Position numbers and translations under genes: made by a program | Origin: a virus | Length of the DNA stretch: 64,000 nucleotides | IMG/VR virus record: IMGVR_UViG_3300008954_000034 | Location: 1 to 64,000 of that record | Direction: 5' to 3' (one strand) | In this document: piece after piece, positions 15,739 through 56,453 of the stretch | How the letters are laid out: each line of letters starts with the position of its first letter | Position numbering within the stretch: the first letter of the stretch is position 1 | Notes under the pieces: generated by a model | What the model was told of the DNA's origin: nothing | The model's database searches: none | What the model saw: only the letters and a program-made list of their open reading frames with translations

Positions 15739-16543
15739 GCACCTCCTCAAAAACATCGATGCTTGTCAGCTGCGGAAGAGTTGGTACGTTCAACACAATA
15801 TCGGTTACTGGTCGGATTTCCTCAAATGCCTTTACTACCCACCCGTCCATAATAGACCATTTCATATTCGGGTACATTGAGGTCTGGAACTGGTAGTTGA
15901 TCAGCCATGGGTTGTTGGCGTCCATGCTGTAGGAAAAGCTATCCAGCCTCCCAACAAACGTGTCGTACTCGAACACGAAAAGTAGATCTCCGTCCTGCTC
16001 AAGAAAGAATCTCTCGAACATTGCAAGGGCGTGCCACGCCACGGAAAGCTGCGGTGCTCGAATAAGATCAATTCCCGGGGTAGAGAACGGTGGATACATG
16101 TTACCCATCGTACCGGAATACGAGAACGTGGTGAGCTGGTTTCCATGGGTCTGCTGGACGTTTCCCCTACCAGTCAGCTTATTATCACGGATCTTCCCGA
16201 ACTTCTTATCCAGTTTCGACGGGTTAATTCTGAAGGTATAGTACTTGTCTATGTCATTTGCAATCTGCTGCTGAACAAGAAGCTGTGCAGCCTGAAAGAG
16301 CGTAGCTTCAATTTCGGCAGCGGCGTTTGTATTAGCAGATCCGATAACGCCGTGCTGCTGTAGTATATTTTTAAACTCCTCTGCGAACAGCACCCCCGCA
16401 CGAGCGAGAGTCGACTTGACAATCGCATACACTATCTCTGACGCCAACTCGAACGCCCGTGGGTTGATTACGGTCATTGTTGTAGCAGTACCAAGGCTAC
16501 TGGCAGCCTGCCCAAGTACACCACCTAGTGAAAGGTTAGGCAT
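15728..16543 (-). CDS. Tail tip adaptor protein following the tape measure
   Basis: It has 271 residues, with GGGAG six bases before the ATG. The N-terminal 110 residues are helical. From residue 100 on: YYTFRINPSKLDKKFGK, QQTHGNQLTTFSYSGTMG, LLFVFEYDTFVGRLDSFSYS and ANNPWLINYQFQ. This pattern is common in proteins encoded right after the tape measure in contractile phages, where they link tube and hub. LysM-carrying relatives exist, but no LysM is seen here. Confidence 0.6.
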   Translation of the reverse strand: MPNLSLGGVLGQAASSLGTATTMTVINPRAFELASEIVYAIVKSTLARAGVLFAEEFKNILQQHGVIGSANTNAAAEIEATLFQAAQLLVQQQIANDIDKYYTFRINPSKLDKKFGKIRDNKLTGRGNVQQTHGNQLTTFSYSGTMGNMYPPFSTPGIDLIRAPQLSVAWHALAMFERFFLEQDGDLLFVFEYDTFVGRLDSFSYSMDANNPWLINYQFQTSMYPNMKWSIMDGWVVKAFEEIRPVTDIVLNVPTLPQLTSIDVFEEVHGA

Positions 16544-19170
16544 TATCGACTCCCGTTATCAAAGTACCCGGTCTCATGCAACTGATTAATAACGTCAGCA
16601 ACGACGCCTTGAAAGTGTGCCCCGAGCTCTTCCTCTATCCTATCCCGAGTAAGTAATGGTGTACCTTGCTCATTTCTAATGCTCACACTGGTATCGCCAA
16701 CTTGAATCTGAACCCCGGGTCGACTGGGATCTACGTCTAGAATGGGTTGGTTCATCAGTGAGTCTAAGATACTGGTAATCACCTCTGGCCCAGCAAGGTT
16801 ATACGATTCAGATAGAGCACGTTGTCGATTTAACATGGCTACGTACTGCGGCCCGGTTGTAAAAGCACCCGTCCCCTCTTCCCACACTGTGTCAGGCCGG
16901 TGACGGATCTGCGCAAGATCTATGAATCTTCCGATCTCATCAGACGAAAGTTCTGTACGACCTTCTTCAATTAGATAGTCACCGTAGATTTGTATCAACT
17001 GTCGAATTCGGTCGGGTCGGATTGTTTCATTCTGCATAGCCTCTGCAATACCGGCAAATAGACTAGATGTGGGAACCATCGTCGGATCAGCACCGGGAGC
17101 CCTGTTCTCTACAAGTGGAATAGTGCTGCCAAGCCCGTATTGCAGTGAACCAAATACCTGACTACCAGCCATTGTCCGACCGAGACTCGCTATTTCACTT
17201 TCACCCTCATTAAATGCTCGAGCAAAGCTGACCGCAACTTGATCAACACTATCCCGCCAAAAGGCACTTATACCATCTTTAACTCTGGACGCCATAGACT
17301 GATTCATTTCCAACATGGCTTCTGCTGTTTTCTTTACCTCTTCGTACGTTGACGTCGGCTGCGCAGCTTCAGCTGCCTTGTCCGCTGATATTCCGTCGCG
17401 AGCTTCTTCAAACCGACCCTGCTCAATGGCACGAATCATCTCGTTCTGGGTCGCCAAGGTTCGACCAAGGTCGATGCCAAACATACTCTGCATCACCTCG
17501 ACCACCATCTGCCCACCAGCTGCGCCAAGTCCCATCTCACCAAGAATCTCACGCGAGATGGCAAGTGCGCCCTGCATAAGCTGGCTGTTCAGACCTTCGA
17601 ATTGCTCACGGAGCGCACCAGAAGATAGGTCGAAGTAACGTCCAAGAATCTGACGCTGTTGCCCCGTTGCCCCACGAATGGACTCAGTCGATATTTCCCC
17701 TGACTGAATACCGCGCAGCAACGTTTCCTGTTGAAGTGGGTCACCAAACGAAGCCACGTCCTGACGGAACCCAGCATCCACCCCACCCATCTGTGGTAGA
17801 TATGTTGACAGAGCCAGTCGCTGAGACTGGTTGGCCTCCGCCAGTGAGGTCTGAAGCCTGACCAAGTCCCCGATGGCAAGCACACCACTCTGCAGCTCCC
17901 GCGCAAACTCAGTGACGAGTCGACGGGAGTCTTCCAGTTCATAACCGTAGATACGTGTCTGTTCCTGAAGCTGAAACGTCCACTTGGTGAGATCTTGGAA
18001 TGAAACTCGGACTTCATGGGCGGCGTCAACAAGGTCAAGAACTGCGTCGTTGAGAAGCTCCTGACGGACTTCGAAGTCACGGAACAGCTTAACGTACACC
18101 TGTGCTATTTCTGCCGGGCTTACACCTGTGCCCACGCCGGTGAATATAGCTTCTTCTGTTATTCCTGCGATGTCACGCTGTGAAAAGCCACCGGGGGCAA
18201 GTGCCCGGGCAACGGTGGGTACAATCCGCTGGTCGAGCGCATCGCCGAAGTTGCGAAGCATCTCGTTATGCAGCTGAACAAGCTGTCCAGTCCCCTGACC
18301 TACAATAACACCCGGGGCAAGATCGCCCATACTGGCAGCGATATCGAGGAAGTTAGCCCGAATGGCCCGGAGTTCTTCATTAGCCTGAACGAGCCTTTCG
18401 ACTACATGCCCAAGTGAAAAGGCAATACCACCCACACCTAAAATACGAAGAAGAGACTTCGATGCTCCTTTAAATTGAGAACCGGCCATCACCCACAGTT
18501 GTGCAACCTCCGCACCACCACCAGCTGCCTGTGCGGCCACGCCAGTTCCTTCAGCAGTAGATTTACCAGCCTGCGCTAAGTTACGAAGAGTCTCAAGTCT
18601 GTCCTTGTTTGAGTCAGATTCCTCGTTCCACGCCTCCCGTTGAATTTCAATCAAGCGTTGCCGCCCTTCTTGAATCCGAGATTCTGCTACCTCACGTGCT
18701 TGACTAATTTCCTGCTCACGAGCGGCAATCTTGTCGATGTCACCTTCTCGACTTCCTCCGTCAGCAGCCGCACGGGCCTGCGCAACTTCATCTTCCTGTC
18801 GCTTGAGTTCTTCGAGTTCCTGAAGGTTCTGGCTATGCTTAGCTGTGACTTCCTTGGCCTCTTCCTTGAGCATTTGGATCTTACGCTCGTGGACGGCCTG
18901 ACGCTCAGCAAACTCCATCGCAATGCGCTCACGCTCTTCCCGACCAACGTCCTCCTGCTTTATACGAAGAGAGTCCAGTAACCGCTCCTGCGCCTCGATC
19001 TGCTTTTGATACTCGTCAACAGACATATGAGCAAGGTCGCGAGCCATGGTCATGGACTTCTGCATTTCCTTGGCACGGAGCTCGTCCATCGGACGGATAA
19101 GCTGCTCTTCTACAGACTGAGCAGCACCGTCAGCATCAATGGATATTCGTGTCCGCAGCTCGCTGGGCAT
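16543..19170 (-). CDS. Tape measure protein
   Basis: It has 875 residues. Residues 20-190 are highly charged coiled coil (Glu/Lys/Arg/Gln rich). A Gly/Ala-rich hydrophobic part follows at about 210-260 (LLRILGVGGIAFSLGHVV), then long helices. It lies directly after the two chaperone frames and overlaps them by 35 bases, with GAGG six bases before the ATG. Tape measures set tail length. The length suggests a tail of roughly 130 nm if the usual 0.15 nm per residue applies. No lytic domain is obvious. Confidence 0.85.
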   Translation of the reverse strand: MPSELRTRISIDADGAAQSVEEQLIRPMDELRAKEMQKSMTMARDLAHMSVDEYQKQIEAQERLLDSLRIKQEDVGREERERIAMEFAERQAVHERKIQMLKEEAKEVTAKHSQNLQELEELKRQEDEVAQARAAADGGSREGDIDKIAAREQEISQAREVAESRIQEGRQRLIEIQREAWNEESDSNKDRLETLRNLAQAGKSTAEGTGVAAQAAGGGAEVAQLWVMAGSQFKGASKSLLRILGVGGIAFSLGHVVERLVQANEELRAIRANFLDIAASMGDLAPGVIVGQGTGQLVQLHNEMLRNFGDALDQRIVPTVARALAPGGFSQRDIAGITEEAIFTGVGTGVSPAEIAQVYVKLFRDFEVRQELLNDAVLDLVDAAHEVRVSFQDLTKWTFQLQEQTRIYGYELEDSRRLVTEFARELQSGVLAIGDLVRLQTSLAEANQSQRLALSTYLPQMGGVDAGFRQDVASFGDPLQQETLLRGIQSGEISTESIRGATGQQRQILGRYFDLSSGALREQFEGLNSQLMQGALAISREILGEMGLGAAGGQMVVEVMQSMFGIDLGRTLATQNEMIRAIEQGRFEEARDGISADKAAEAAQPTSTYEEVKKTAEAMLEMNQSMASRVKDGISAFWRDSVDQVAVSFARAFNEGESEIASLGRTMAGSQVFGSLQYGLGSTIPLVENRAPGADPTMVPTSSLFAGIAEAMQNETIRPDRIRQLIQIYGDYLIEEGRTELSSDEIGRFIDLAQIRHRPDTVWEEGTGAFTTGPQYVAMLNRQRALSESYNLAGPEVITSILDSLMNQPILDVDPSRPGVQIQVGDTSVSIRNEQGTPLLTRDRIEEELGAHFQGVVADVINQLHETGYFDNGSR

Positions 19171-20676: not shown

Positions 20677-22401
20677 TTACGCCGCTGCGCTGAGCGGTGC
20701 CACCGAGAATCCGTAGTTGAACTCGATGATGTTCATCGGGTAGATCGGGGCGTAGTTGAATCTCACCCAGATCTTAGTTGGGTTACTGGCGTCCTGAGTG
20801 ACTTCAATATCACCGTAGCTCTCGATGATACCCTCTTTGACAAGGGTTGCGAGAACCTGCTGCGTCCGGTTGGCAATGGCCTGAAGTCGGTTCAGGGTGA
20901 TCTTGCGGTCCCTGCCCCGGAAGGTGCTCATGGCGGTTCGGAGCTGGTAACGCATCTCGTCTTCGGCGTCGACTACGCTGATCTCCTGATCTTCCACCGA
21001 AGTAGTGTTGCAGGTGATGCCGTGGTAAATGACGTGCGTTCCGCTTTCTTCCTTGACGTAGGTTCCGCCTGCGGCCTCAATGATATCCTGATACTCGACG
21101 TCAACCCAAAGCTCGACCGTGGCCGCCCATGTGAACCCGTTAATCACGGCGTTCGTAAGTGGTGTCGCTGGGTCTGGCCGTGAGCAAAGAGCTCCCGCTA
21201 CTGCCGCCGCATAGAAGTGGGCGTCAACCGCCACTGGGCCTTCGACAAAGTTACCGTCCGTCCCCTGCTTCAGGTTAGCGTAGTACACCGACTTGTTTGG
21301 AACCAAGCCGATCATCCGCTTCGAACCCTGCATGGAGTTGAGCCAGTACAGAATGGAACCTGCGGTGGAAACGTCCCCAAGAACCGCACCCGAGGTTACA
21401 GCAACCACCCCGTTTCGTTCCATGCCGTAGTTGTCGCCAGAGTACTTCTCGCAATGCGCTCGCAGATACTGCTCAATGGCGGTTCCGCCCTTCAATACTG
21501 AGATGAAGGAGACTCGAACCGTCGCAAGAGTGTCCAGTGCCGTCTGGTAATGTGCTGAGGTCGTACCAGACGGTGCGACAACGTAGGCTTCAGTCGCTCC
21601 GTTGTCCTTGAATGCGTATCTGGCTGCGTTCGTGATATCCGATCCCACACCGTGGTCATCAAGAATGTCACCGAAGTTGGTGTACAATGACTTCGTGTAG
21701 GTAAACACGGCGTAGTAGTAGGTAATGTAGTAAGCGCTTGCTGCTCCGGGCCGACGCTTTGCGGTGTTGGACGACGGTGGCGATGTTGCCGTCGTGGTCC
21801 CACCAGTCGCGCTGTACGAAGTGGTGTCGCCGTCAGCGATGGTAACAAGAAGCTCGTAGGTGCTACCCGTTGCAAGGTAGATCTTGTATCCACCCGCAAA
21901 TGGAACCTTGGCCCACGTCAGGGCAACAACGTCGCCCGATGCTGAAACAGCGGCTGTAACCGCGTCGCTCGGGGTGGTCTCACCCGTACCTTCCTGATCG
22001 GTTGCGGTGATCTTGAACCCGAATGTACCGGTCACGGCCCAAGTCCCCGCTCCGGCGCTTACAGTCGGGGTGTCAACGGTCGGAGGCAGTATATTTCCTG
22101 CGGATGTCCAATCAACATCGCCGCTGGAATTGAGGGTAAAGTCAATGCCCTCGGTGTAAACCTCCTGTGTGTTCCCGGTGGAATTGGCAACCCGAACAAC
22201 AGATCGAACGTCGTTGTTCGCCAGTGCATCAATGTACTGGCTTCCGGTTGTTCCGGAGGTGCCACCGGCAGTAACGGACTCATTTGAGACCAGAGTGTTC
22301 TTGCCCCGCGAAGCACCGACAAGACCCATCCGGCGTGCAGCAATGTTAACGGGGACGGAGCCCCCGGCTCCCGTTCTGCGTGCGATCACTTTGACTGGCA
22401 T
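20677..22401 (-). CDS. Tail sheath protein
   Basis: It has 574 residues, with GGGAG seven bases before the ATG. The C-terminal third is typical of contractile sheath subunits: NRLQAIANRTQQVLATLVKE, then IESYGDIEVTQDASNPTK and RFNYAPIYPMNIIEF. The middle has an Ala-rich domain (ALCSRPDPATPLTNAVINGF) found in sheath proteins. Residues 95-210 hold a Gly/Thr-rich immunoglobulin-like insertion (FGFKITATDQEGTGETTPSD). A CTATCATT promoter core lies about 32 bases upstream. Confidence 0.9.
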   Translation of the reverse strand: MPVKVIARRTGAGGSVPVNIAARRMGLVGASRGKNTLVSNESVTAGGTSGTTGSQYIDALANNDVRSVVRVANSTGNTQEVYTEGIDFTLNSSGDVDWTSAGNILPPTVDTPTVSAGAGTWAVTGTFGFKITATDQEGTGETTPSDAVTAAVSASGDVVALTWAKVPFAGGYKIYLATGSTYELLVTIADGDTTSYSATGGTTTATSPPSSNTAKRRPGAASAYYITYYYAVFTYTKSLYTNFGDILDDHGVGSDITNAARYAFKDNGATEAYVVAPSGTTSAHYQTALDTLATVRVSFISVLKGGTAIEQYLRAHCEKYSGDNYGMERNGVVAVTSGAVLGDVSTAGSILYWLNSMQGSKRMIGLVPNKSVYYANLKQGTDGNFVEGPVAVDAHFYAAAVAGALCSRPDPATPLTNAVINGFTWAATVELWVDVEYQDIIEAAGGTYVKEESGTHVIYHGITCNTTSVEDQEISVVDAEDEMRYQLRTAMSTFRGRDRKITLNRLQAIANRTQQVLATLVKEGIIESYGDIEVTQDASNPTKIWVRFNYAPIYPMNIIEFNYGFSVAPLSAAA

Positions 22402-23160: not shown

Positions 23161-23564
23161 GACGGTTCCGTTGTTGTGGTTTGGACGTTTCCGTCACCAT
23201 CGATATACAGGTAATGAGTCCCACCTGTTGAATTGGTCAGCTGGAAATAGTCTGGTTCACTTCGAATCAACGGACCAACCTCAATCCGTGAGTATGTTGT
23301 TGGAATCTGGGGAAGTACGCCTGCACCTGAAATAACAAGAGCGTAGACCCCGGGTTTGATATCAGTCAGGGTCGCATAACCGTAAACATCGGTGGTTCCG
23401 GTAATACCAGTCCCGGAACCAAATGGAGTCGCGGTCGTTCCGCTGGGGGCGTTGTCAATGATCTGTACCCCGTACTCGTAGAGAGTGACGGTCAGATTGT
23501 TGCGGCCACGGTCGGTGTTCGAATCGATCAACCGAACTTCAAGCGTATGTCCTGATACTGCCAT
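23157..23564 (-). CDS. Small beta-sandwich virion protein (CarboxypepD_reg-like)
   Basis: It has 135 residues; GGAGG lies eight bases before the ATG, which overlaps the endonuclease stop as TAATG. GTTDVYGYATLTDIKPGVYA matches the pattern of carboxypeptidase-regulatory-like beta sandwiches, often used as virion surface decorations. It lies among neck and tail-completion genes. Confidence 0.6.
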   Translation of the reverse strand: MAVSGHTLEVRLIDSNTDRGRNNLTVTLYEYGVQIIDNAPSGTTATPFGSGTGITGTTDVYGYATLTDIKPGVYALVISGAGVLPQIPTTYSRIEVGPLIRSEPDYFQLTNSTGGTHYLYIDGDGNVQTTTTEPS

Positions 23565-24373
23565 TATGCAGCCCTCCGAATTCCGTAGCTACTGTCAAGA
23601 TCAGATATAATAGATCGAGCTTGGTTATACTTACGTTGCATCGAGATGGATTTATCGGACTCTTGGTATATCATTTTCATAACTTCCAGTCCAATTCTCC
23701 CACGAATATGTAGCTGATAAATTGAAGCGTGTGGGTATACTTGGCCTCTGTAATGTGGGAAGCTGGTCACCACAAAGTCTCTGAATGAGTCAACTATGGC
23801 GTACGTTCCACTGAGATTTATAAACGGAACACCTCGGTCGTCCACCCACATCCCACCGTCTCCGTCTATAACTCCACGCCAGAAGTGACGATTGGACTCG
23901 AGACTGGGGTGAACAGTAGCCGTATGAGTTTTATTTGGTGTGACATCGAATCTTATAAGATCTTTAACTACCCACCTTGATGTAATACACACTTCCGCCA
24001 TATCTCCATAAACATTTGGAGACGTGTCAACTTCCATAAAGTCAATGAATCTTTTTATGCTCTCTACATCCTTGCGGTGAAGAGCTAGTTTTAATGATCC
24101 CTTACTATAAACACATCCATCGGCCAGCATAAATCCTAACCAGTATGATGATTCGTCGGTTATAGTTGAAAAAGCTCGATGATTGCATTCACGTGTATTT
24201 GTAAATCTGGCACTATGAATAATACCACCACTGCGTCTTACGATATTTCGGATGGTTGCACCAGTCACATTGAATACCTTCCCAATCTCTGGCGAACTCA
24301 TCCCGGAAGCATAAAGATCACATGCCTTCTGCTCATTCAAAGATGAAAGCGAATGTTTGTATTTCTTTCTCAT
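23564..24373 (-). CDS. Free-standing LAGLIDADG homing endonuclease
   Basis: It has 269 residues. Residues 10-45 form a helix-turn-helix (ACDLYASGMSSPEIGKVF, TGATIRNIVRRSG). Two LAGLIDADG motifs follow: YWLGFMLADGCVY at about 77-89 and FWRGVIDGDGGMW at about 163-175, both with the acidic residue. Such enzymes cut a homing site and spread their own gene. It overlaps its neighbours by four bases and one base and has no good ribosome site, so translation is probably coupled. It interrupts a run of neck genes and looks like a later insertion. Confidence 0.85.
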   Translation of the reverse strand: MRKKYKHSLSSLNEQKACDLYASGMSSPEIGKVFNVTGATIRNIVRRSGGIIHSARFTNTRECNHRAFSTITDESSYWLGFMLADGCVYSKGSLKLALHRKDVESIKRFIDFMEVDTSPNVYGDMAEVCITSRWVVKDLIRFDVTPNKTHTATVHPSLESNRHFWRGVIDGDGGMWVDDRGVPFINLSGTYAIVDSFRDFVVTSFPHYRGQVYPHASIYQLHIRGRIGLEVMKMIYQESDKSISMQRKYNQARSIISDLDSSYGIRRAA

Positions 24374-25239
24374 CGGTTTACACTGAACTCCGTCATCTGG
24401 CTTTCAAGATCATCCAACATGTCCTGATATTCTTGTGTGAAATGTGAACTATCTCCTGAAAATTCAGTCCCGAGTTCGGGCTCAAACGCCGATCCAGCCA
24501 CTTGAAACCCAAGCCCTTCTAAGTTATTTGACGCGTCCTCTAACCCGTAAATGACACCATCACGAAAGAAATGTTTCCCCGAGTAACCGGGATGATACCA
24601 ACTCAACCCAGTCGGATTATACTTAGACGGACGTCCAATTGACGCCTCGGTAATAGTCCTGTAAAAGATCTCGTCGCCGACTACCTCGGAAGTCCTGCCG
24701 CCACTCGTCTTCCGTGTCGACTTGCCCGGGTCCGTCACAAAGGGTGTGGCTGCACTCTGCCCTTTTGCTCCTCCGGCGTACGGTGTTCCGGGGCCTGCAA
24801 ACTTAACCCGGGACACACCATGAATAACACGCCCGGTCCGTGGGTTTACTCGCTGACCTTGAACCTTGATCAGCGGTATAGTCTTTCCAACCAGCCACTT
24901 CATCGGCTGGGTCTTTACCCCGTACTCCTGATAGACCAAGTACGCCGCTTCCTCATCGACATAAATATCTACATGCTTGTCAAGGGCCTGAAACTGCACG
25001 TTCTGTGCGCCGCGTCCCGTCTGGTGGATGAACTCAATGTTCCTACCGTCGCGTCCGGGCTGCGCTCCTGCCATAATTGCCCGAATGTTCTTCTGGCATA
25101 CAAGTCCGATCCGGTACAGCAACTTCCTAATCGCCTCGTCCCACTGGGCTTGATCGGAAAGCCGCAGCCATGTGTCGGGGAGTGAAACAATCTTGATCTG
25201 TACCCCGTACTCTGGAAGTGGTACGGACGGGGTAAACAT
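24370..25239 (-). CDS. Neck/tail-completion-like protein, unknown
   Basis: It has 289 residues and overlaps the stop of the 2093-residue gene as TGATG. The N-terminal 110 residues resemble head-tail joining proteins (WDEAIRKLLYRIGLVCQKN, YLVYQEYGVKTQPMKWL). A Gly/Arg-rich basic part follows, then an acidic, helical C-terminus. The position between connector and tail-terminator genes supports a neck role; the family is not certain. Confidence 0.5.
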   Translation of the reverse strand: MFTPSVPLPEYGVQIKIVSLPDTWLRLSDQAQWDEAIRKLLYRIGLVCQKNIRAIMAGAQPGRDGRNIEFIHQTGRGAQNVQFQALDKHVDIYVDEEAAYLVYQEYGVKTQPMKWLVGKTIPLIKVQGQRVNPRTGRVIHGVSRVKFAGPGTPYAGGAKGQSAATPFVTDPGKSTRKTSGGRTSEVVGDEIFYRTITEASIGRPSKYNPTGLSWYHPGYSGKHFFRDGVIYGLEDASNNLEGLGFQVAGSAFEPELGTEFSGDSSHFTQEYQDMLDDLESQMTEFSVNR

Positions 25240-28200
25240 CAGTATTCATCCCCTCGAATCACCTCATTTGCGTAGTTCTTCAAGTCGCTCAGTACATCTG
25301 CACTCAATTCGTCTGAGTACGAGGGGCTTGAAATCTTGGCCCCACCGTCGTCCAAGAGTTCAACCTCGACCGGTGTTTGCTCGTCCCAGTCGGTGAAGGT
25401 ACCGCCGCTGTTGAGTGCGTCGAGGAATGTCTCTAGTGAAGAATAGTCGTTCCTCTCCCACCCGGCTGTCATGGTGTATGACGGAGTCTGGACTTTTATA
25501 ATGCCGCCCCAGTCATATGGCTCAAAGGCTACTTCCGTGTTCGCTGTTGCCTCTAACTGCGCATCCTTACTAATCTTGAACATCATCACTGTTGAAGTTC
25601 CGTCCATTAGCGTCCCGGGAACATAGGGCTGGTCTTCATCTTCAAGGATGAGCCCAAGATCCGCTCCAATGTCTCGTGCAGTCTGCGCGTGGTCGTTGTC
25701 AATGGTAAGATCTACGTAGCCGGGTTTGTCGGACATCTCAACCACCACCTGCTGAACACCAGCTGACTCAAGCTCAGACTCAAAGTCCTCGGCAATGGAA
25801 GCTCGCCGCTTGTGAGCAACGCTCAGGAACCCACTCCCATCGTCGTTGACCAGTCCTTGGCTTACCGCCTCTGAAACTGCTTTGTCAATCTCGGCCTGAT
25901 CGGTAAAGTCCGCGTCGAAGAAGGTGTAAAGGGACGCCGGGGCGACTGTGGCACCACCGCCCTCGTTCTCATTCAAGATTCGGACGGCGTTGGCAATGCC
26001 CTCCGGAGAGATGGTGGGGAAGTCCATGTCGCTTGGATCGCCACCGACACCAAGTTCAGCTACATTACCCGCATCCTTCAGTAGGAAGTATGTCTCTCCG
26101 GGTCCGTCAGTGAATGGGGCTGAGAAAAGGACACCACCTCCGGCCACACCGACTTCAGTATATCCCTCCTGATCTAACCAGCTCTCGGCTTCTTCAGCAG
26201 ACGCAAAGTCTTGATATGGATTAGAGGCTAATTGGTCGCCGTTTTCGTTGGATTCCCAAATATTAACAGACGCCTGAGATTCAGTCGATCCCATCACCGT
26301 GGTACGCTTGTACTCTTCCCAGAATGCTGTTCCGCGTGGAGACCCGGTTTCATTTGCGTCGGCCTTTTTACTGGAGGTGTACTCATCCCAACCTGAGTCA
26401 ATGTCAATCATCGTGTCAGTTCCGATGCTGGCGGTAGGAAAAAGTACCCATTCGGTAGCAGTAAAATACTGAACCTCGGTGTCTAGAGCGTACCCACCCA
26501 TGTCATTAGAATTAAGCCAGTCTTCCATAGTGGCTAAACTCGACTTGGGCATGGAAACGGTGTAAATCAGATTACCGTGGTCGTCGGTTTCTTTCACCCC
26601 ACTCTGAGTATTAACCTCTGGAATTGCAGATTCAATAGCCTGCACTACGTTTGCAAATGCAGTTTCTCGGTCCTGAAGATACTGAGTGTCGGATATCTCA
26701 TCTTCATCGGGATGGTCCTCTTCCCAGTCATGCTCTGCAAAGAGGATAGTGAAGCCTACCGCAACTTCATCCCCGTCCTGAGCACGTCGTACCCGTGTTG
26801 CCCGCATCTGCTTCCGAGTCCGGGAGATGGTAATCATCTCCATACCACCATGATCGTCCTGTATCCACACATTCGGGTAGAACTGGTCGTTCTCCATGTG
26901 GTGCTTGATGGCCTCATCTCGATCTTCGAAGATGCGTCCGTCCGACTTAACGCGGAACCCGGTCTCAACTCGTGTCAGCCGGGGGATGATGTTCTCTTCT
27001 TCCCACCGGGTCCACTCATCCATGCTCATGCTCAAGTCATCGGTGTCAGTTCCGGTCGCTTCCCCGTAAAGTTCGGTCTCGTGCTCTACCGCATCAACTT
27101 TGTCATTGTGACCAGAGTACTGAGTCCCGTCGCTGGTGATCCATGCACCGTCATAGGTCTCCTCAATGACGATGTCGCCTTTCTGGTAAGCATCAGTTCC
27201 GTCAAAGACAATGTCATCCGGCTCGGCTTCGACTACATCCTCGCCGTCGTAGGCCCGCTTGCTCTTGCTACTGAGAAAAGGGTCGGTTACCAGACCTCCG
27301 GCCTGTTCCATTATACTGTCCATAACTCGAACAACATCGTCATCATACTCGTCACGAACCCAGAGGGTTGTTATATCCCCAGATTCCTCAAAGTAAAAGT
27401 TCTCAGACCCAACACCCGCTTCCTGTAAAGCCTGAGAAACAGTGTCTTGTCCAATATCTGTGCTGAAATCATAACCAGTTTCTGCACCCGGGTACATGCC
27501 AGCACGTTTGGTCCGACGATTCCTACGGCTCAGAAAAGGAGGGTCGGTTACCTGACCTCCACCGCTACCTTCCATGAAAATGTCAAGTAGGTCTGTTACC
27601 CTTTCAACATCCTCATCTTGAATCCAAAGCGTCATACTGGCAGCGTCGCCCTCAAGTGAATAGTCACTATCAGGAATACCAGCACCGGTCAGTACCTGTG
27701 CAAGGTCCGCAATGTCCGTGTCGGGGCTGAGACTGAAGCTAGTCTGCCCAGCACGTTTGGTCCGACGATTCCTACGGCTCAGAAAAGGACCGTTATCTTG
27801 TACCTGTACTGATCCGTATAGCTGCTGGAGTTCGTTCTCAGCTTCCTCTTCCGAGTCATATGGACCTACCCAGTCAGTTTGATCCATGTACCCGGGTGCA
27901 GAAAGCTGGGCGCACCACCCCTCTTTAAAGTAAATCTCATCTTCGTAGATGTCGTCACCCTCAACGTAGTCCCGAATACTGTCCAGCCACGTTTGGAACT
28001 CTTCGCTTTCCGGGTCTTTATTGGTGGGAAGACCTGTCAACTCGGACGGTAGAACAAAGCCACCACTATAAGCGTAACCCACCACCCACGTATCATACAT
28101 AGTAACGGGTTCCATAAAGTCTGCGTTCTTGTGCTGTTCTTCCCCGTCTGCCGACGCAATCCAAATACGAGGCCCAACCATGTCAGCCAGTTTCTTGCCG

Positions 28201-31200
28201 TGCTTCTTGCCGTAGTAACTGACCGGCGAGCAGCAGTCATAGTAATCGTAATAGTCTGACGGTCCCCACCATGAAGCGAATGATCCGAAGTTGTCTTGGA
28301 TGTCGGCGTAGCTCCAACCTGCTGTCTTGTCGAGCAGATGGAGAACTGTGCTTGCGGCCACGGTACCCTTGAGCCTGAAGTACATGTAGACCCGGTTTGT
28401 GCTGCTGACCGCTTTGTCGGCCTCGGCCTCGGGCTTCAGCAGGTCGTTAACCGCCTGATCTCCCTCGTCCCAGCCACCTGTAATGCGGCGGATGATGTTG
28501 CTGATCGTGTACCAGTCAAGCTCGCATAGCATCTCTGCGCCAACCGACAGAATGTTGAGTTCAGAACCGGCCAGCGATTCAAGCGCCTGCTGGCGTCCGG
28601 CCTCGCTCAGGTGAGTCCACCATTCCCATGCGTCCCACGAGTAGTAAATGCTCTCGGTCGACTCCTTGGACTCTGCGTCCTCGACCCGAGCAAGCAGCTC
28701 CTCCGGGAATACGGTGTTCAAGTCGGTCGGTGGGTTACCGTTCGCAAGGTATGAGCCCTCGAGCCGGATGTGGTAAGTTACGTCATCGTCACCTGCGGCC
28801 TCCTCGGGTCCGTAACTGGCAACCCGCACAGTGCTCGATGTTCTCGATGCGTAGGGTTCAACATCCTTCATGGCTGTAAGGACGGCCTCAATGTCGTCGA
28901 GGCTGTCAGTGGAAATGGCAGATTCGAGCTTTGATGTCCATTCATCTTCCATGACCGTGGTCAGGAAGTTGGAAAGTGTACGATCCAGCTCGTCCCTTGC
29001 CGTCCCGTCCTCATCGTCTCGCGCCCTTTGAATCAGCGCAAGAATCTCGGTTGGGTTTTCGGTAACGAGGTCGGTGGCCTCATGTGTGCTTGCCATCATT
29101 GTTGGTTCAGTTCCGTAGGCCAGCATATGAAGTTCTTCAAATGTAAGATTGTGCCTTTCGGCAACATCTTTCATTTTTTCATCGTGGTCTACAACATTCC
29201 CAACAGAGTCTTCTACAATCTTAACCCACTCGCGCATTGCCGCACGTTCATCGTCAGTTTCTGGAACTGGAGCCCACTCATACGAGGTCTTCGCAGCCGT
29301 GGTAGCACCCCTTGACGAATAGTGTAGTACTCTTGATGCGTACGGTTCAACGGTCTGCATGTCCGTGAGAACAGCTGCAATCTCGTCAAGATTATCGGTG
29401 GAGATGGCGGCTTCGAGCTTTGCCGTCCAGTCGTCCTCCATAACCGTGGTCAGGAAGTTGGCAAGTACCTGATCCAGATCTCCCTTTAATGACCCATCTT
29501 CATCTTCTCGCGTCTCCTGAATCAGCGCAAGAATCTCGGTTGGGTTTTCGGTGAAGGGGTCGCTGGGTACATGTGTATTTGCCGTGGTCTGAACGTACTT
29601 GAGAATTGCCTCGATCCGGTCAAGGTCACGGTCAAGTAGTGCACTTTCCATCTTATCCCATGACTCTTCGGTCAGGGCAGATCCAAATTCACCATGTCCC
29701 ATCGCATCGCTGACGTTCTGAAGAAGAGCATCGACGTACATACTGTCTGTAAGTGCCTTATCAAGGTCGGCGAGAAGGGAAGTGATTGTGCTGGCCGCAT
29801 CGGCTTTCTTCCGACGTGAAGATCGAAATTCCGTTGTGTCATAACTGTCAAGGAATTCATCCCACCCGAATTTAACTTCCTCGTCGTCTTTGTCCATCTT
29901 AACCGTAAATTCTGACCCGGTGTTCTCGGTAACAACACCTGTGTCTCCAACAGCATAAATTTGCTCTGGGTTGGCAGTCATACTGAATGCAGTGATAGTT
30001 TCAACCTTGGTGCCAACTGGAAAGTACTCATCAGTAATTTCCTTGAGCGGTACACCACCCGGTTTCCGTTCCTCAGCGATCTGCAACCATGTGTCAGCGC
30101 TGGCACCACGCTTCCGTGAGGTTATGAGCTTTACATCCTTCAGGGCGTCAACGTCCATGTACACTTCATATACTTCTTCAGCCTCAATATCGTCCGCAGC
30201 CTGTCGAGCGTCTTCAATGGCTGTCTCAACACTGGCGTACTCTTTCATGACCATCTGGTCACCAGCTCCGTTCGCCAGAATGAGCTTGGACTTGGTTCCG
30301 TACAAGGTGATGAGATCATCGCCCCAAGACGCCAGAACCTTGGCGTTCTTGATTTCACCTGCCCGTGACCCACTTGCCACTAGGTCAGCGGCAAGAACCG
30401 CAAGTTCAATGTCACCATCGAGAACCTGAACCGTTGGATAAGCATAGCTCACAACCGTCAACTTGGTCTTTGCTGCGATGATACCAAGGTTATCTTGTGA
30501 GCTGCGGGAAGTAGAATACCATTGCGGTCGTCCTGAAACTAACAGAAAGTGGACAGGACCACGGGCGTCCCGACCAGCACCGTTGTCTTCCACCATATAT
30601 CCAGCGTCCTCAAGGATATTCGTGGCCTCCGTAGACTTATTGGGGTCAATAGATACATCCACAAAGCCAAGCCCACTACCTTGATCTGAAACATCAAAGT
30701 CATCTGTAATTGACTCTAGCAGTTGCGTGACTTCAGATACATCAGCACTCGTAGCCACCAACGACGCAATAACGTCCCGGGAGAGAACGTAGGTATCGCC
30801 GGGGAAGATGCGTGACCCCATACCGGTGACTGGGGCTCCGTTGTCAACGCAGATGTGGTCTGTCTCGCCGTTCAAGTAATCGGGACAGGCCAACACACGC
30901 TGCTTCCCGAGCTTGGACTCACGGGCTGTCTTACCACATGTGTCACACACCGGGTAAATGGGTGGGAACACCTGCATCATGCCGCCGTTCCGGGAAAGAG
31001 TCACGGTCCGACCTGTCGACCGGGCAATACGAAGGGCGCTGACATAAGCCTGCGCGTCACTGCCATAGAAGGTAGCGATAATCTCACGTCCGTCCGCAGT
31101 GTCGAACATATCAGTTGCACCGATGTGGCGCTGGACAGAAGCTGCAACCTTCGCAGCTAAGTGTGATTCAACGCCAACGACGGCAACTCGGATGGATCTG

Positions 31201-31520
31201 GTATCGTCGTTTGCATCGATGTCCAAGAAGCTGCTGGCACGCTTCCGTGCGGCCTTCTTGCTGGTTCGGGGGTTACCGCCAATCTCGACAGTCCGACCAC
31301 CACGATGTGCAAATCTGGCTTTCATAGTCCTTCTCCCGGTGAGGGGGAATAGCTCCACCCCTGTTACCTCTGCTATCAACTCCCGAAATGCCGCCTCGTC
31401 AATTGGGTCTTGCTCGAGAATAGCATCCATACGGGCAACTTGATCTTCGTCTGCGTCCCGAAAGAACTGGGCCATTTCCATTACCCCAAGATTTCCCGGG
31501 TATGAAAGCCCACGTCTCAC
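25239..31520 (-). CDS. Giant modular virion-type protein, possible polyprotein
   Basis: It has 2093 residues. The GTG start overlaps the previous stop as GTGA and has GAGG seven bases before it. It is acidic, but broken by short basic segments ending in Ala: at about 93-95 (KRA), 571-573 (KKA), 1255-1257 (KRA), 1338-1340 (KRA), 1421-1423 (KRA), 1578-1580 (RRA), 1718-1720 (KKA) and 1905-1907 (RRA), plus SRKRGA near 470. A zinc-ribbon-like cluster is seen at about 192-224. Residues 656-735 and 819-898 are a strong internal duplication; 1246-1325 and 1329-1412 are another. Residues 258-330 and 1906-1985 share a small alpha/beta domain, and 501-565 looks like an SH3/KOW-type barrel. It lies between neck genes, so a virion or core role is likely. 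Cleavage at the basic sites is inference. Confidence 0.7.
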   Translation of the reverse strand: MRRGLSYPGNLGVMEMAQFFRDADEDQVARMDAILEQDPIDEAAFRELIAEVTGVELFPLTGRRTMKARFAHRGGRTVEIGGNPRTSKKAARKRASSFLDIDANDDTRSIRVAVVGVESHLAAKVAASVQRHIGATDMFDTADGREIIATFYGSDAQAYVSALRIARSTGRTVTLSRNGGMMQVFPPIYPVCDTCGKTARESKLGKQRVLACPDYLNGETDHICVDNGAPVTGMGSRIFPGDTYVLSRDVIASLVATSADVSEVTQLLESITDDFDVSDQGSGLGFVDVSIDPNKSTEATNILEDAGYMVEDNGAGRDARGPVHFLLVSGRPQWYSTSRSSQDNLGIIAAKTKLTVVSYAYPTVQVLDGDIELAVLAADLVASGSRAGEIKNAKVLASWGDDLITLYGTKSKLILANGAGDQMVMKEYASVETAIEDARQAADDIEAEEVYEVYMDVDALKDVKLITSRKRGASADTWLQIAEERKPGGVPLKEITDEYFPVGTKVETITAFSMTANPEQIYAVGDTGVVTENTGSEFTVKMDKDDEEVKFGWDEFLDSYDTTEFRSSRRKKADAASTITSLLADLDKALTDSMYVDALLQNVSDAMGHGEFGSALTEESWDKMESALLDRDLDRIEAILKYVQTTANTHVPSDPFTENPTEILALIQETREDEDGSLKGDLDQVLANFLTTVMEDDWTAKLEAAISTDNLDEIAAVLTDMQTVEPYASRVLHYSSRGATTAAKTSYEWAPVPETDDERAAMREWVKIVEDSVGNVVDHDEKMKDVAERHNLTFEELHMLAYGTEPTMMASTHEATDLVTENPTEILALIQRARDDEDGTARDELDRTLSNFLTTVMEDEWTSKLESAISTDSLDDIEAVLTAMKDVEPYASRTSSTVRVASYGPEEAAGDDDVTYHIRLEGSYLANGNPPTDLNTVFPEELLARVEDAESKESTESIYYSWDAWEWWTHLSEAGRQQALESLAGSELNILSVGAEMLCELDWYTISNIIRRITGGWDEGDQAVNDLLKPEAEADKAVSSTNRVYMYFRLKGTVAASTVLHLLDKTAGWSYADIQDNFGSFASWWGPSDYYDYYDCCSPVSYYGKKHGKKLADMVGPRIWIASADGEEQHKNADFMEPVTMYDTWVVGYAYSGGFVLPSELTGLPTNKDPESEEFQTWLDSIRDYVEGDDIYEDEIYFKEGWCAQLSAPGYMDQTDWVGPYDSEEEAENELQQLYGSVQVQDNGPFLSRRNRRTKRAGQTSFSLSPDTDIADLAQVLTGAGIPDSDYSLEGDAASMTLWIQDEDVERVTDLLDIFMEGSGGGQVTDPPFLSRRNRRTKRAGMYPGAETGYDFSTDIGQDTVSQALQEAGVGSENFYFEESGDITTLWVRDEYDDDVVRVMDSIMEQAGGLVTDPFLSSKSKRAYDGEDVVEAEPDDIVFDGTDAYQKGDIVIEETYDGAWITSDGTQYSGHNDKVDAVEHETELYGEATGTDTDDLSMSMDEWTRWEEENIIPRLTRVETGFRVKSDGRIFEDRDEAIKHHMENDQFYPNVWIQDDHGGMEMITISRTRKQMRATRVRRAQDGDEVAVGFTILFAEHDWEEDHPDEDEISDTQYLQDRETAFANVVQAIESAIPEVNTQSGVKETDDHGNLIYTVSMPKSSLATMEDWLNSNDMGGYALDTEVQYFTATEWVLFPTASIGTDTMIDIDSGWDEYTSSKKADANETGSPRGTAFWEEYKRTTVMGSTESQASVNIWESNENGDQLASNPYQDFASAEEAESWLDQEGYTEVGVAGGGVLFSAPFTDGPGETYFLLKDAGNVAELGVGGDPSDMDFPTISPEGIANAVRILNENEGGGATVAPASLYTFFDADFTDQAEIDKAVSEAVSQGLVNDDGSGFLSVAHKRRASIAEDFESELESAGVQQVVVEMSDKPGYVDLTIDNDHAQTARDIGADLGLILEDEDQPYVPGTLMDGTSTVMMFKISKDAQLEATANTEVAFEPYDWGGIIKVQTPSYTMTAGWERNDYSSLETFLDALNSGGTFTDWDEQTPVEVELLDDGGAKISSPSYSDELSADVLSDLKNYANEVIRGDEY
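27499..27540 (-). repeat. 42-bp direct repeat, copy 2
   Basis: This copy is identical to 27748-27789, offset by 249 bases (83 codons, in frame). It encodes the basic linker FLSRRNRRTKRAG that starts each module. A diverged third copy (FLSSKSKRA) occurs near 27255-27285. Confidence 0.9.
27748..27789 (-). repeat. 42-bp direct repeat, copy 1
   Basis: Exact partner of 27499-27540 inside the 2093-residue gene. The near-perfect DNA identity of the linker, against diverged modules, suggests recent duplication, conversion or strong selection on the linker. Confidence 0.9.
28827..29066 (-). repeat. Internal 80-residue duplication, second copy
   Basis: It encodes TENPTEILALIQRARDDEDG and ends near DVEPYASR; roughly three quarters of residues match the copy at 29316-29555. 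It includes a 32-base stretch identical to the other copy. Confidence 0.8.
29316..29555 (-). repeat. Internal 80-residue duplication, first copy
   Basis: It encodes TENPTEILALIQETREDEDG and ends near TVEPYASR. The repeat is predicted to be a helical bundle with the core NFLTTVMED shared by both copies. Confidence 0.8.
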
Positions 31521-34526: not shown

Positions 34527-35483
34527 TTACGCAGTGCTGTCGAAGGTACCCTTGTTGACACCACGGGCGTTGATGATCGCCATGCCAAGATACTCGTACC
34601 CGGTGAAGCCGAGCAGGAGGTTGTCAGGATCATCAGCCGGGATGGCTTCGAAGTCCTTACGGATCGGCATCCATGCCAGCCATTCCGGCCCAGCAGTCGG
34701 ATAGAACGTACCAGCGGTGAGCTGGTCGCTGATCCAGAGCTTCGCGCCCCAGATGGAACCGATGTAACCGGTCTGGCGAACTTCCTGACGTGCCACTTCG
34801 TCGAGATCAAGATAGCTCCAGCGGCGAATGCCCTGAATACCGTATGCGGTCATCAGAACGTTCTCGACCACCAGACGGTTGGCCTCAATCGGAGTGAACG
34901 CCATTGCCAGCGCGTCCTTCGTGAGCTTCGTGGCTACGGATGTCGCCGTGTAGTAGGTGCTGTATGCGCTTTCGAAGAGCCCGAACATGTAGAGGTCTTC
35001 GCGGAGCATCATGGACTGTTCCAGACGATCCTTGGTGCGCTTCATCACCTGATACAGACGACTGTAGAGTTCCGAGTACGGAATCTTCGGACGTGCCACA
35101 ATCTCAAACGGTTCCAGCGTTACGCGGTCGACTTCGATCTCGATGAATCGAGTGGTACCGTTGTGGCCAATGATGGCTGCCGTGAACTCTTCGACATCGC
35201 TGTCGTAGATCATTGGCATTCCATCCGCCCACGGTTCAACCACGGCGAACTTACGTCCAATACCCTCATAGTCCAACTTCTGACGGACCGGGCTGGACAG
35301 GTTTGCGGCGATCTTTGCCAGACCTGCTGAGGTCGACATGGCCGCTCGAAGGGTCTGCTCCTTCTTCGCAATCTTCTGCAGTGTGGCTTCACGGGACATG
35401 TGGCCTCCGCGAGCTGGCTGCTGAATGTTGCGAGTCGTACGGGAGGCAGCACCCTTGTTCTGCTTGTTCAGCTTATCGAACAC
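34527..35483 (-). CDS. Major capsid protein (HK97-like)
   Basis: It has 318 residues and a GTG start with GGGAGG nine bases upstream. The N-terminal 60 residues are basic and helical and may be removed on maturation. The rest has the mixed pattern of HK97-fold capsids: an E-loop-like FIEIEVDRVTLEPFEIVARP, then long spine-helix segments (RLYQVMKRTKDRLEQSMMLR) and a final beta part (LLLGFTGYEYLGMAIINA). The context is decisive: decoration protein, scaffold and protease candidates upstream, and a strong terminator downstream. Confidence 0.75.
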   Translation of the reverse strand: MFDKLNKQNKGAASRTTRNIQQPARGGHMSREATLQKIAKKEQTLRAAMSTSAGLAKIAANLSSPVRQKLDYEGIGRKFAVVEPWADGMPMIYDSDVEEFTAAIIGHNGTTRFIEIEVDRVTLEPFEIVARPKIPYSELYSRLYQVMKRTKDRLEQSMMLREDLYMFGLFESAYSTYYTATSVATKLTKDALAMAFTPIEANRLVVENVLMTAYGIQGIRRWSYLDLDEVARQEVRQTGYIGSIWGAKLWISDQLTAGTFYPTAGPEWLAWMPIRKDFEAIPADDPDNLLLGFTGYEYLGMAIINARGVNKGTFDSTA

Positions 35484-36004: not shown

Positions 36005-38128
36005 TCAGTCGAAGAATTCTGGGCTGTCCAGTGAGCAGTCGTCTGGCTGGCTGCCTCTGAACGTTGATTCCCGAGCCCTCAGGCCCCGATTTGCCTGTTC
36101 CTTGTTGGCCCGGCTGACCATACGCGACTGTCGCCTGTGCTCGCCATCAGTTGCTCGAGCTCCGCTGTAGTTCGGCGCGTTGTCAACCATGTTCTTCGCA
36201 TTCTTGAAAGTAGTCTCGTCCATCTCGACTAGTGCCTTGAGCTCGGCAGCTTTCTTGCTCGGATGAATTAGACCTTTACGTAGCTGAGTGGCAACAACCT
36301 TCTCAGCTTCAAGTTTTCTCAGTTTCGAGTCCTTGACCTTACCTTCCTTCTCAAGGTCGCTCACCTTGGAGGAAAGCCCGGCCAGCTTGCGCTTGGACTC
36401 AGTGGTACCGGCTTTGCCGCGTTTCTTCGGTGCGGCGGTCCCGTTGCCGTTCTGACGTGACTGATGGAGACGACCGAGACGACGAAGTCGAGCTGCGCGT
36501 GACTTCTTTTCGTCATCGTCATCTTCCTTCTTGCCGTCGTCCTTCTTGGCATCCTCGTCATCTGCTGCCTTACGCTTCTGCGGTGTTGGCAGCTTTCCAT
36601 TGGTCGCTGACTTGGATGCTTCCCGGGTTGGGCGGGTGCCGTAGATTGCGTATACACCGTCGCCGTCAAACACACGGAATCCAGCTTCTTCCAGTTTGGC
36701 AGTGATGCCATTGACGATGTCGTTGGAAACCTCTCCACGTTTTTCATCGTCGTACTCACCCCACTGCGCCAGCACCCCAGTGACGTCAATGCCGTACGAC
36801 GCAGCTTCCGCCATGATCACAGATGTGAACTCTGGGGTATCGTGAAGCGATGACATCAGGTACGTGGTCGGTTCCGCACCCTCAGGTGGCATACCTGAAT
36901 CGTCCCATTCCCAGTCCGCAGTTGCGATCTTCGGTTTCGGATGGCGAACTGCGCTCACGCGACGTTCCTTCTTCAACCCCATCACCGGATTATCGTTGAC
37001 GTCGTCCGTGCCCTTCTGGAGCTTCGCTTCATCGTCAGCGGCGTGCGGGGGATCAGACTTACCAAGATCGGAACCGTCGGCCTTGCCTTCTTGCGCGTTC
37101 GTGGGCTCGGCGTCCTTGTTCTTACCACCTAGGTCGCCCTCTTGACCAGCGTCCGGCTTGGCGTCTGTGTTTCCACCACCAAGTGGGCCGTCCTGAGTGT
37201 CTTCCGGCTTGTCAGCGGCCTGCCGCTTACGCAACTTCAGCGGCTTTTTCGATGCCTTCTTGCCGTCATCGTCATCATCGTCATCATCGTCATCATCATC
37301 AGACGCGGCTGTAGTTTCATCCCAGTCATCGTCGTCGGTGAAGTTGAAGTCATCGTCGCTGCGCGTTTCATCTGCGGCTTTCTTAGACGCGGTCAGTGCA
37401 TTCTTAATGTCGTCGTCGGTAAGCCCAGCGCCATGCATTCCTGTGCTCCAAATCCAGATGAGTGATGGGTCGTTGTCATCGTATTCAACCCAGCCACCCT
37501 TGACACCAATCTCACGAAGTCGCTTCTTGATCTCCGACTTCGACGTCAGAGTCGTGTTGTACCCGTTGGCACTTGCCATTCTACGGACCTTCATCTTGCT
37601 GCTCCTCGACGTGGCATGGCCTCCATCGGCCTGCGCAGTGAATGGAAGAGAATTTTCACTAATATCCGATATATCGATGCCAAGCTGAGAAGCGGCTTCC
37701 TGCCTCGCTTCGTCGTATGTATAACCTTGGCCCATCAGTTCTGTTATCTTGTTAATGACTTCGGCAGCGTCCGCGCTGGTCTTCCTCCCATTGGCGGCGT
37801 CAGCGTCAATCACATCTTCATCAATATCATCGTCTTCGCTTGCCCCATCTGGGGTTGGACCACCTGTATCTTCTGAGTCCTCGCGGAATTCATCGATGGC
37901 GTTTTCAACGTCTGGTGGGGCTTCGCCAATGGTCGGGAGCTTTTCAATCCCTGTGCGAAGAATGGACTCACCAAGAGACGCTACCTTGTGCCGGTTAGCA
38001 GCGGAGGTGTCTTTGGCGTCGATGGAGGAGTCGATGGCGGTAACGTGGTCACGGAGCTTATTGGCAACGGATGCCTTCCGTGGTCCCTTCACCAACTTGT
38101 CTGCAACTAAGTCAAAAACGTCCTGCAT
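36005..38128 (-). CDS. Prohead scaffold/core protein candidate
   Basis: It has 707 residues, with AGGAG eight bases before the ATG. The first 90 residues are helical. A run of eleven Asp lies at about 278-288, and the protein alternates acidic and basic stretches. Basic-Ala segments recur (KRQAA near 303, KRKAA near 521, ASKKAA near 251), similar to those in the 2093- and 788-residue proteins. Residues 425-500 look like the small alpha/beta domain of those proteins. The last 200 residues are a long charged helix. The position just before decoration and capsid genes fits a scaffold or internal core protein cut during maturation; this is inferred. Confidence 0.6.
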   Translation of the reverse strand: MQDVFDLVADKLVKGPRKASVANKLRDHVTAIDSSIDAKDTSAANRHKVASLGESILRTGIEKLPTIGEAPPDVENAIDEFREDSEDTGGPTPDGASEDDDIDEDVIDADAANGRKTSADAAEVINKITELMGQGYTYDEARQEAASQLGIDISDISENSLPFTAQADGGHATSRSSKMKVRRMASANGYNTTLTSKSEIKKRLREIGVKGGWVEYDDNDPSLIWIWSTGMHGAGLTDDDIKNALTASKKAADETRSDDDFNFTDDDDWDETTAASDDDDDDDDDDDDGKKASKKPLKLRKRQAADKPEDTQDGPLGGGNTDAKPDAGQEGDLGGKNKDAEPTNAQEGKADGSDLGKSDPPHAADDEAKLQKGTDDVNDNPVMGLKKERRVSAVRHPKPKIATADWEWDDSGMPPEGAEPTTYLMSSLHDTPEFTSVIMAEAASYGIDVTGVLAQWGEYDDEKRGEVSNDIVNGITAKLEEAGFRVFDGDGVYAIYGTRPTREASKSATNGKLPTPQKRKAADDEDAKKDDGKKEDDDDEKKSRAARLRRLGRLHQSRQNGNGTAAPKKRGKAGTTESKRKLAGLSSKVSDLEKEGKVKDSKLRKLEAEKVVATQLRKGLIHPSKKAAELKALVEMDETTFKNAKNMVDNAPNYSGARATDGEHRRQSRMVSRANKEQANRGLRARESTFRGSQPDDCSLDSPEFFD

Positions 38129-40068: not shown

Positions 40069-40998
40069 TCAGATCGACTCGAGTATACGAACAAACTCGG
40101 CCTTGTCCTTCTTGGACGTTATGCTCGAGTGAATTGCCCGGAGTGTTGACGCAAGACGTCTGGAGTCCTGACGTCCAATGCGGCTGGCCACTACCTGAAG
40201 AATCTTAGCACTGACATCCGCACCCTGCGACCCGGGATAGCCATTCCACTCTTCGGGCATAATGAGACTGTCCTCAAAGAAGGCCAAGCCAAAGCAACGC
40301 TCAAAGGACCGTACCTTTCCACCAGACACCGGGTGATCAAACTCGACGCCCTTGTTAATGCCGAACGCACCGATGTGCTCGCAGTACGGGGTTACGTCTG
40401 GGTCAGTTGTCTGGTGACCGCACACGTTACATTCAGAGAACTGGATCATCGTCCCCATTGACGTGTCGGTAATCCCACCGTCAAGGATGGCTTCGACGGC
40501 GTTTGGATAAAGACCGTCCAGCGCTTCCTTCTCAATGGCCCATACATTTTCGACCCAGTTACCAACAACCTGATCTCCTTCATCGAGACTGGTAAGCCCC
40601 GTGAACGGTGTCAGCACTGGTGACTCGGACCCTTTCTTGGAGGCCAGTTCTCGAGCAGCCTTTGAAATCACAGCTGATGGAATGTAGGCAGAGTCTACAA
40701 CCATCCCAATATCCAAACTTGGGTCGTGGTCGATGTCAATCATCTGCCCGGGGAAGGTACTGTGAGAACGTAGGAGTTCCACACCCGGGAAACCGTCAAA
40801 GTTCTGGTTCGGTCCCCACAGCTCTTCGGCACTGATCGATCTGTTTCTGACGTACAAGTACTGGTCAGGGTTCAGCTTAATCCCGCGAGACGACGCGAGA
40901 CGTTTCTGTACCGACTCTGTTGTGCGACCGGCGAGAACAATCTTCTCGGGGTTCCGCGCAACCTGAACCATCTTTGATACGCCGTGCTTAACAAACAT
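40069..40998 (-). CDS. Prohead protease candidate
   Basis: It has 309 residues, with GAGGAG eight bases before the ATG. IDIDHDPS at about 89-96 can supply a catalytic His, and ITDTSMGTM at about 177-185 a catalytic Ser, followed by a zinc-like cluster CNVCGH ... YCEHIGAFG. The order His then SMG Ser plus Cys cluster recurs in maturation proteases of large phages, as I remember them. The gene lies upstream of scaffold, decoration and capsid genes. It would cut scaffold and possibly the basic-Ala sites. A structural core protein is the alternative. Confidence 0.55.
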   Translation of the reverse strand: MFVKHGVSKMVQVARNPEKIVLAGRTTESVQKRLASSRGIKLNPDQYLYVRNRSISAEELWGPNQNFDGFPGVELLRSHSTFPGQMIDIDHDPSLDIGMVVDSAYIPSAVISKAARELASKKGSESPVLTPFTGLTSLDEGDQVVGNWVENVWAIEKEALDGLYPNAVEAILDGGITDTSMGTMIQFSECNVCGHQTTDPDVTPYCEHIGAFGINKGVEFDHPVSGGKVRSFERCFGLAFFEDSLIMPEEWNGYPGSQGADVSAKILQVVASRIGRQDSRRLASTLRAIHSSITSKKDKAEFVRILESI

Positions 40999-56391: not shown

Positions 56392-56453
56392 GGGACATCT
56401 CCTATGGTACAAGATTTCTCAAGTGTTGTAGATAACCGAACGTAAGACTATGA

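Follow-up and report, generated by a model that had tools for sequence, protein, structure and literature searches.

The locus raises the question of why a large phage should keep one open frame of 2093 codons whose acidic product is broken up again and again by short basic segments, and of what such a protein might be for. The window, a stretch of 64,000 nucleotides of viral DNA, is part of a 77,954-bp viral record, and a 127,741-bp contig (L003) with identical genes for the giant protein and the capsid has a 119-bp terminal overlap, so that a circular or circularly permuted genome of about 127.6 kb is probable. The phage is a myovirus with a tail sheath (20677-22401), a baseplate wedge (10735-12279) and a tape measure (16543-19170), and by sequence it is a distant relative of Bacillus phage G. 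Its class II ribonucleotide reductase (52300-56412, minus strand, 1370 aa) contains an intein bearing a LAGLIDADG homing domain, and a 1046-aa UvrD/Rep-like helicase of the same phage (L104:11366-14506, minus strand) appears by eye to be intein-split as well.

25239..31520, minus strand: 2093-aa acidic modular protein (proposed cargo polyprotein), defined by its open frame, start site, composition and identical copies elsewhere

The frame runs through all 2093 codons without a stop, from a GTG start that overlaps the upstream gene by 4 bp and is preceded by a purine-rich AGAGGTG, and the protein recurs at 100% identity in two more contigs (IMG/VR 3300009128_000102 and 3300009008_000009). That it is acidic, as the preliminary description had it, is borne out by 401 D+E against 168 K+R and by a net acid per residue of 0.111 against a proteome median of 0.029. 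In this phage and in the one relative that has an orthologue the gene sits between neck-like genes and tail genes, and by eye a likely LAGLIDADG-type homing endonuclease gene (23564-24373, minus strand) also lies between neck and tail genes. The basic segments found by motif scan or by a repeat search of the giant gene are the following.

31233..31262, minus strand: linker SKKAARKRAS (aa 87-96), motif scan
30096..30119, minus strand: linker around SRKRGA (aa 468-475), motif scan
29799..29822, minus strand: linker SRRKKADA (about aa 567-574), motif scan
28182..28208, minus strand: linker KKHGKKLAD (aa 1105-1113), motif scan; closes a block common to the giant protein and its relative
27748..27789, minus strand: linker PFLSRRNRRTKRAG, copy 1 of an exact 42-bp repeat, repeat search
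27499..27540, minus strand: linker PFLSRRNRRTKRAG, copy 2 of the exact 42-bp repeat, repeat search
27249..27278, minus strand: linker FLSSKSKRAY (aa 1415-1424), motif scan
26778..26795, minus strand: linker RVRRAQ (aa 1576-1581), motif scan
26355..26375, minus strand: linker SSKKADA (aa 1716-1722), motif scan
25797..25814, minus strand: linker HKRRAS (aa 1903-1908), motif scan; opens a block common with a 788-aa protein

All eight (K/R)(K/R)A segments reported earlier and the SRKRGA are there, with GKKLA in addition, and the 42-bp repeat is exact while the modules around it have diverged to about 35-43% identity, as had been said. The motif itself is narrower than first noted: in its strict form (K/R)(K/R)(x)A has one of S/D/G/Q/N as its next residue. 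Degeneration is seen in several linkers, such as VRVAS in the giant protein at the place of KRKAS in the relative.

Whether the linkers are anything more than basic spacers is a matter of statistics. In composition-preserving shuffles the pattern [KR][KR].?A clusters in the giant protein (10 against 2.2 expected, p 0.001), and the strict form occurs 9 times against 0.95 expected, a count that is not independent because the strict motif was derived from the giant protein's own linkers. Alanine stands at +1 or +2 after 11 of the 22 dibasic runs, where 3.8 would be expected (p 5e-4), and among 18 residues tested after such runs alanine is the largest outlier. What follows the linker alanine is mostly small or polar, a bias that the other proteins of the phage do not show, and since the motif read backwards is missing (0 against 0.73 expected) the motif is directional. 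The outlying alanine and the directionality together argue that the linkers are more than basic spacers, and the enrichment of alanine with a small or polar follower makes simple basic charge less likely as an account, which tells against the anchor sites offered in the preliminary description as the alternative to cleavage.

The distribution of the motif over the phage bears on where the protein may act. Across 150 mechanically called ORFs the strict form occurs 33 times where 19.8 would be expected, and four proteins account for the excess, namely the giant protein and three others: the scaffold-position protein (6 against 1.09 expected), the head protease (2 against 0.09) and a 788-aa acidic protein. 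The remaining ORFs combined hold 14 against about 17 expected, which is chance level, and the tail proteins are without enrichment. The counts in the protease, in the 788-aa protein and in relatives' scaffolds are less affected by the way the motif was derived. Tags of the form KKxAS at the N-termini of other proteins were considered as a targeting signal and dropped, being 2.6-fold enriched and not above the dibasic content (p 0.08).

40069..40998, minus strand: head maturation serine protease (phrog_18299); H91, S180 and CxxC...C invariant; KRLAS near aa 32 and RRLAS near aa 280
36005..38128, minus strand: 707-aa protein in scaffold position, with linkers and with inserts that are not conserved; 6 strict motifs, three blocks kept in the relative, gene between the protease and capsid genes
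34527..35483, minus strand: major capsid protein, given for context (phrog_2522; 36.8% to Bacillus phage G)
49863..52229, minus strand: 788-aa acidic protein, second proposed cargo carrier; 2 strict motifs against 0.23 expected, module and linker common with the giant protein

The histidine H91, the serine S180 and the three cysteines (CxxC...C) are invariant in 14 aligned proteases, this one and 13 relatives, and KRLAS and RRLAS fall outside the conserved core of residues 64-260, placed as self-processing would require. Since the linker motif is concentrated in the scaffold and the protease too, the giant protein is probably a chain that is cut in the new head and travels with the DNA. That it should instead stay uncut in the virion, the basic stretches between its acidic domains binding packaged DNA or the inner capsid, as beads on a string, would suit the alternation of acidic modules and basic linkers and the head-gene neighbourhood, yet plain charge needs neither the alanine with its small or polar follower nor a direction, and it leaves the motif in the protease without need; we regard this as unlikely. 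Improbable too, we think, is a structural neck or tail protein, or one contacting the host, with module variation driven by receptor or host and with linkers that are ordinary flexible hinges. The place of the gene between neck-like and tail genes in both phages is what such a protein would have, and no family match decides otherwise, but the motif and modules recur in two proteins of the head interior, the scaffold and the protease, and this phage's tail proteins lack the enrichment. The portal-neck-tail region is an atypical site for internal protein genes, and this counts against a cargo reading of the giant protein.

Around homologous capsid genes in relatives the scaffold-position proteins are rich in the strict motif (41 against 16 expected), which the capsid proteins lack (0 against 5.4 expected); other neighbour proteins in these loci are raised too (84 against 50 expected). 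In Tunturi_5, a cultured relative, the KRxA-rich head protein gp328 has 3 strict motifs against 0.75 expected. The capsid protein is related more distantly to the capsids of other large phages and of mycobacteriophages. Bacillus phage G shares with this phage the homologous capsid, the same protease family and the same order of protease, scaffold-position gene and capsid, but no orthologue of the giant protein was found in it, its protease is without KRLAS/RRLAS flanking sites and its scaffold-position protein is without a strict motif. Because the phage G protease is without these sites, KRxA specificity is not claimed for the whole group. Runs of KKxA motifs are borne by scaffold-position proteins of distant relatives (L036:7513-9381 and L031:7555-9345), and in the latter contig an 873-aa protein upstream of the protease (L031:2481-5102) has 5 strict motifs against 0.67 expected. 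In the present phage a very acidic 305-aa protein (48903-49820, minus strand) adjoins the 788-aa carrier and is a possible further cargo.

Between the linkers the protein is built of modules, several of them present more than once.

29331..29585, minus strand: helical-looking module, copy 1 (aa 646-730), about 68% identity with copy 2
28842..29093, minus strand: helical-looking module, copy 2 (aa 810-893), about 68% identity with copy 1
28191..28838, minus strand: module kept in the orthologue (aa 895-1110, 40% identity), alignment with the orthologue
27513..27749, minus strand: small alpha/beta module (aa 1258-1336), modelled as beta-alpha-beta-beta-alpha with a disordered linker
27261..27500, minus strand: small alpha/beta module, next copy (aa 1341-1420), 36% identity to the previous copy over the alignment
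25605..25811, minus strand: small alpha/beta module opening at linker KRRAS (aa 1904-1972), common to the 788-aa protein
30567..30773, minus strand: possible diverged small alpha/beta module (aa 250-318), weak; alignment only, 15% to the first copy

Beyond what had first been described there are thus whole-module duplications, at about 68% and 42% in the giant protein and about 57% in the relative's orthologue, and the motif also in the scaffold-position protein, protease and 788-aa protein. That orthologue, of 1651 aa, lies in syntenic position between homologous neighbours in a second phage (IMG/VR 3300015370_000516) whose capsid is 75% identical and whose neighbour genes are 49-75% identical, and it retains linkers (6 strict motifs against 0.57 expected). 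Only three blocks align between the two giant proteins, the other modules being replaced, and the scaffold-position proteins of both phages likewise consist of three aligned blocks split by non-aligning stretches that bear linker motifs. Scans of viral contigs and one scan of bacterial and archaeal genomes gave no orthologue beyond the same two phages.

Modules duplicated or common between carriers often begin or finish at a linker. A linker and module are common to the giant protein and the 788-aa protein (37%, z 10), and in the relative a module end and linker are common to its giant protein and its scaffold (56% over 32 aa, z 12). Ends of homologous blocks lie near linkers in 8 of 14 cases against 2.4 expected (p 0.0016) and in 5 of 10 against 1.9 expected (p 0.036). 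The duplication of aa 646-730 as aa 810-893 ends at no clear linker site. The sequences, then, establish the anatomy of the protein, that the motif is specific and concentrated in four proteins, and that modules are duplicated, exchanged and shared.

Such exchange could be thought to be the purpose of the linkers, which would then be mainly recombination tags, DNA-level repeats driving module duplication and exchange without processing. The gene does hold a second exact repeat, of 35 bp (29518-29552 and 29029-29063), besides that of 42 bp, and its modules are duplicated and shared, but the 35-bp repeat is within a duplicated module, most linkers have different DNA and, beyond (K/R)(K/R)xA, different peptides, and the core of the protease has the motif on either side as well; as a full explanation this is very doubtful. 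Recombination tagging is compatible with a cargo polyprotein, and both may hold together.

The reading we prefer, at a rough probability of 0.6, is that the giant protein is a late cargo polyprotein which the head protease divides into exchangeable internal or ejected proteins; its packaging, cleavage, ejection and function we infer. Against it stand the degenerate linkers, the duplication that ends at no clear site, an orthologue set of two independent members, and phage G, whose protease lacks the flanking sites and whose scaffold-position protein has no strict motif. Small acidic modules would be joined by short flexible linkers with (K/R)(K/R)(x)A-[S/D/G/Q], the precursor would enter the prohead together with the scaffold, and the phage serine head protease would cleave it at the linkers, releasing about a dozen small proteins that would be kept with the packaged DNA and ejected with it into the host. 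The rapid turnover of modules suggests that they may have roles against host defences. The earlier proposal, that the linkers are prohead-protease sites in an internal or injected polyprotein, is borne out in part and is the best supported of the readings compared: protease, scaffold-position protein, giant protein and one other acidic protein have the motif in excess, and linkers tend to fall at module boundaries; cleavage and presence in the virion are predicted. With S/D/G/Q following the alanine, the bond behind it is no less probable a cleavage point than the one before it that had been proposed. The herpesvirus assemblin cuts between Ala and Ser, which resembles the linker motif.

More tentatively, and with a chance that we put at rather below even, there may be a cassette system in which exchangeable cargo modules, all with the same protease site at their end, are inserted into whichever carriers lie in the head interior (polyprotein, scaffold or 788-aa protein), head maturation destroying scaffold and polyprotein and so freeing injected counter-defence proteins. 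Were the polyprotein reading true, the gene would be a phage analogue of viral polyproteins, with many small proteins from one gene delivered with the genome at a fixed ratio. The linkers would supply candidate head-protease specificity for this phage group and a simple sequence rule for finding cargo, since they would delimit fast-changing, otherwise unrecognisable internal proteins as counter-defence candidates.

In T4 the internal head proteins IPI, IPII and IPIII have a capsid targeting sequence and are processed in the prohead (PMC3012670). The proposed modules are like them in small size, a shared short tag and a highly variable body, and like them would be packaged in the scaffold core, cleaved by the head protease and injected. 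As in T4 there is coding among the head genes of a phage with a head maturation protease (40069-40998, capsid gene nearby), but in place of separate small genes with an N-terminal targeting sequence the modules are fused in one 2093-aa frame with motifs between them, and no sequence relation to the T4 proteins was found. The giant phage SPN3US has ejection or inner-body proteins processed by its head protease, which cuts after A-X-E, mostly taking off N-terminal propeptides, and processes many head proteins including itself (PMC10052503). Both phages have large heads, and the protease here would, as in SPN3US, process several head proteins including itself, but the proposed site here is KRxA and the products would be multiple modules cut from a single protein. 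The polyvalent proteins known from phages and conjugative elements are very large and multidomain, with lineage-specific domain shuffling, and some are packaged and processed (PMC5512222). The giant protein is like them in its great size and in a multidomain architecture shuffled between relatives (three blocks common, the rest exchanged, plus duplications), whereas polyvalent proteins are defined by recognisable enzymatic or conflict domains, of which Pfam and PHROG gave none above cut-off. Lacking one tested defining feature of each, it is assigned to neither the T4-type nor the polyvalent class, although by analogy it might work like the T4 internal proteins, as a fused set, or like polyvalent proteins.

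Family searches gave no Pfam match above cut-off, no PHROG match and no phage tblastn match for the giant protein, and in Pfam, PHROG and phage searches neither the orthologue nor the 788-aa protein nor the scaffold gave a family match to be trusted; CDC37_C, DUF2188, MIC19_MIC25, phrog_14597 and phrog_33851 were discarded as sub-threshold. The conserved 216-aa module gave a poor model (pLDDT 38). The small module, modelled from a five-sequence alignment, gave a fair beta-alpha-beta-beta-alpha fold with the linker disordered; an ACT/PII-like identity was rejected, structure matches to the model being insignificant, a match to the internal head protein Ip6 (E 0.19) is not evidence, and SH3-like modules across carriers, plausible by eye, were unsupported by most pairwise scores. 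A 1172-aa protein of the same phage (L105:2873-6391, minus strand) appears by eye to join a portal-like portion to a MuF-like C-terminal part, the two meeting at SRRAELNHKRA. A small module PxWVxDExxWxxA...YKxMGG is present in two copies immediately downstream of the portal gene (L105:1687-2523, minus strand), and it is met again in the relative's giant protein (L010:6988-11943, aa 276-344) and in another protein of the relative (L109:14803-15645).
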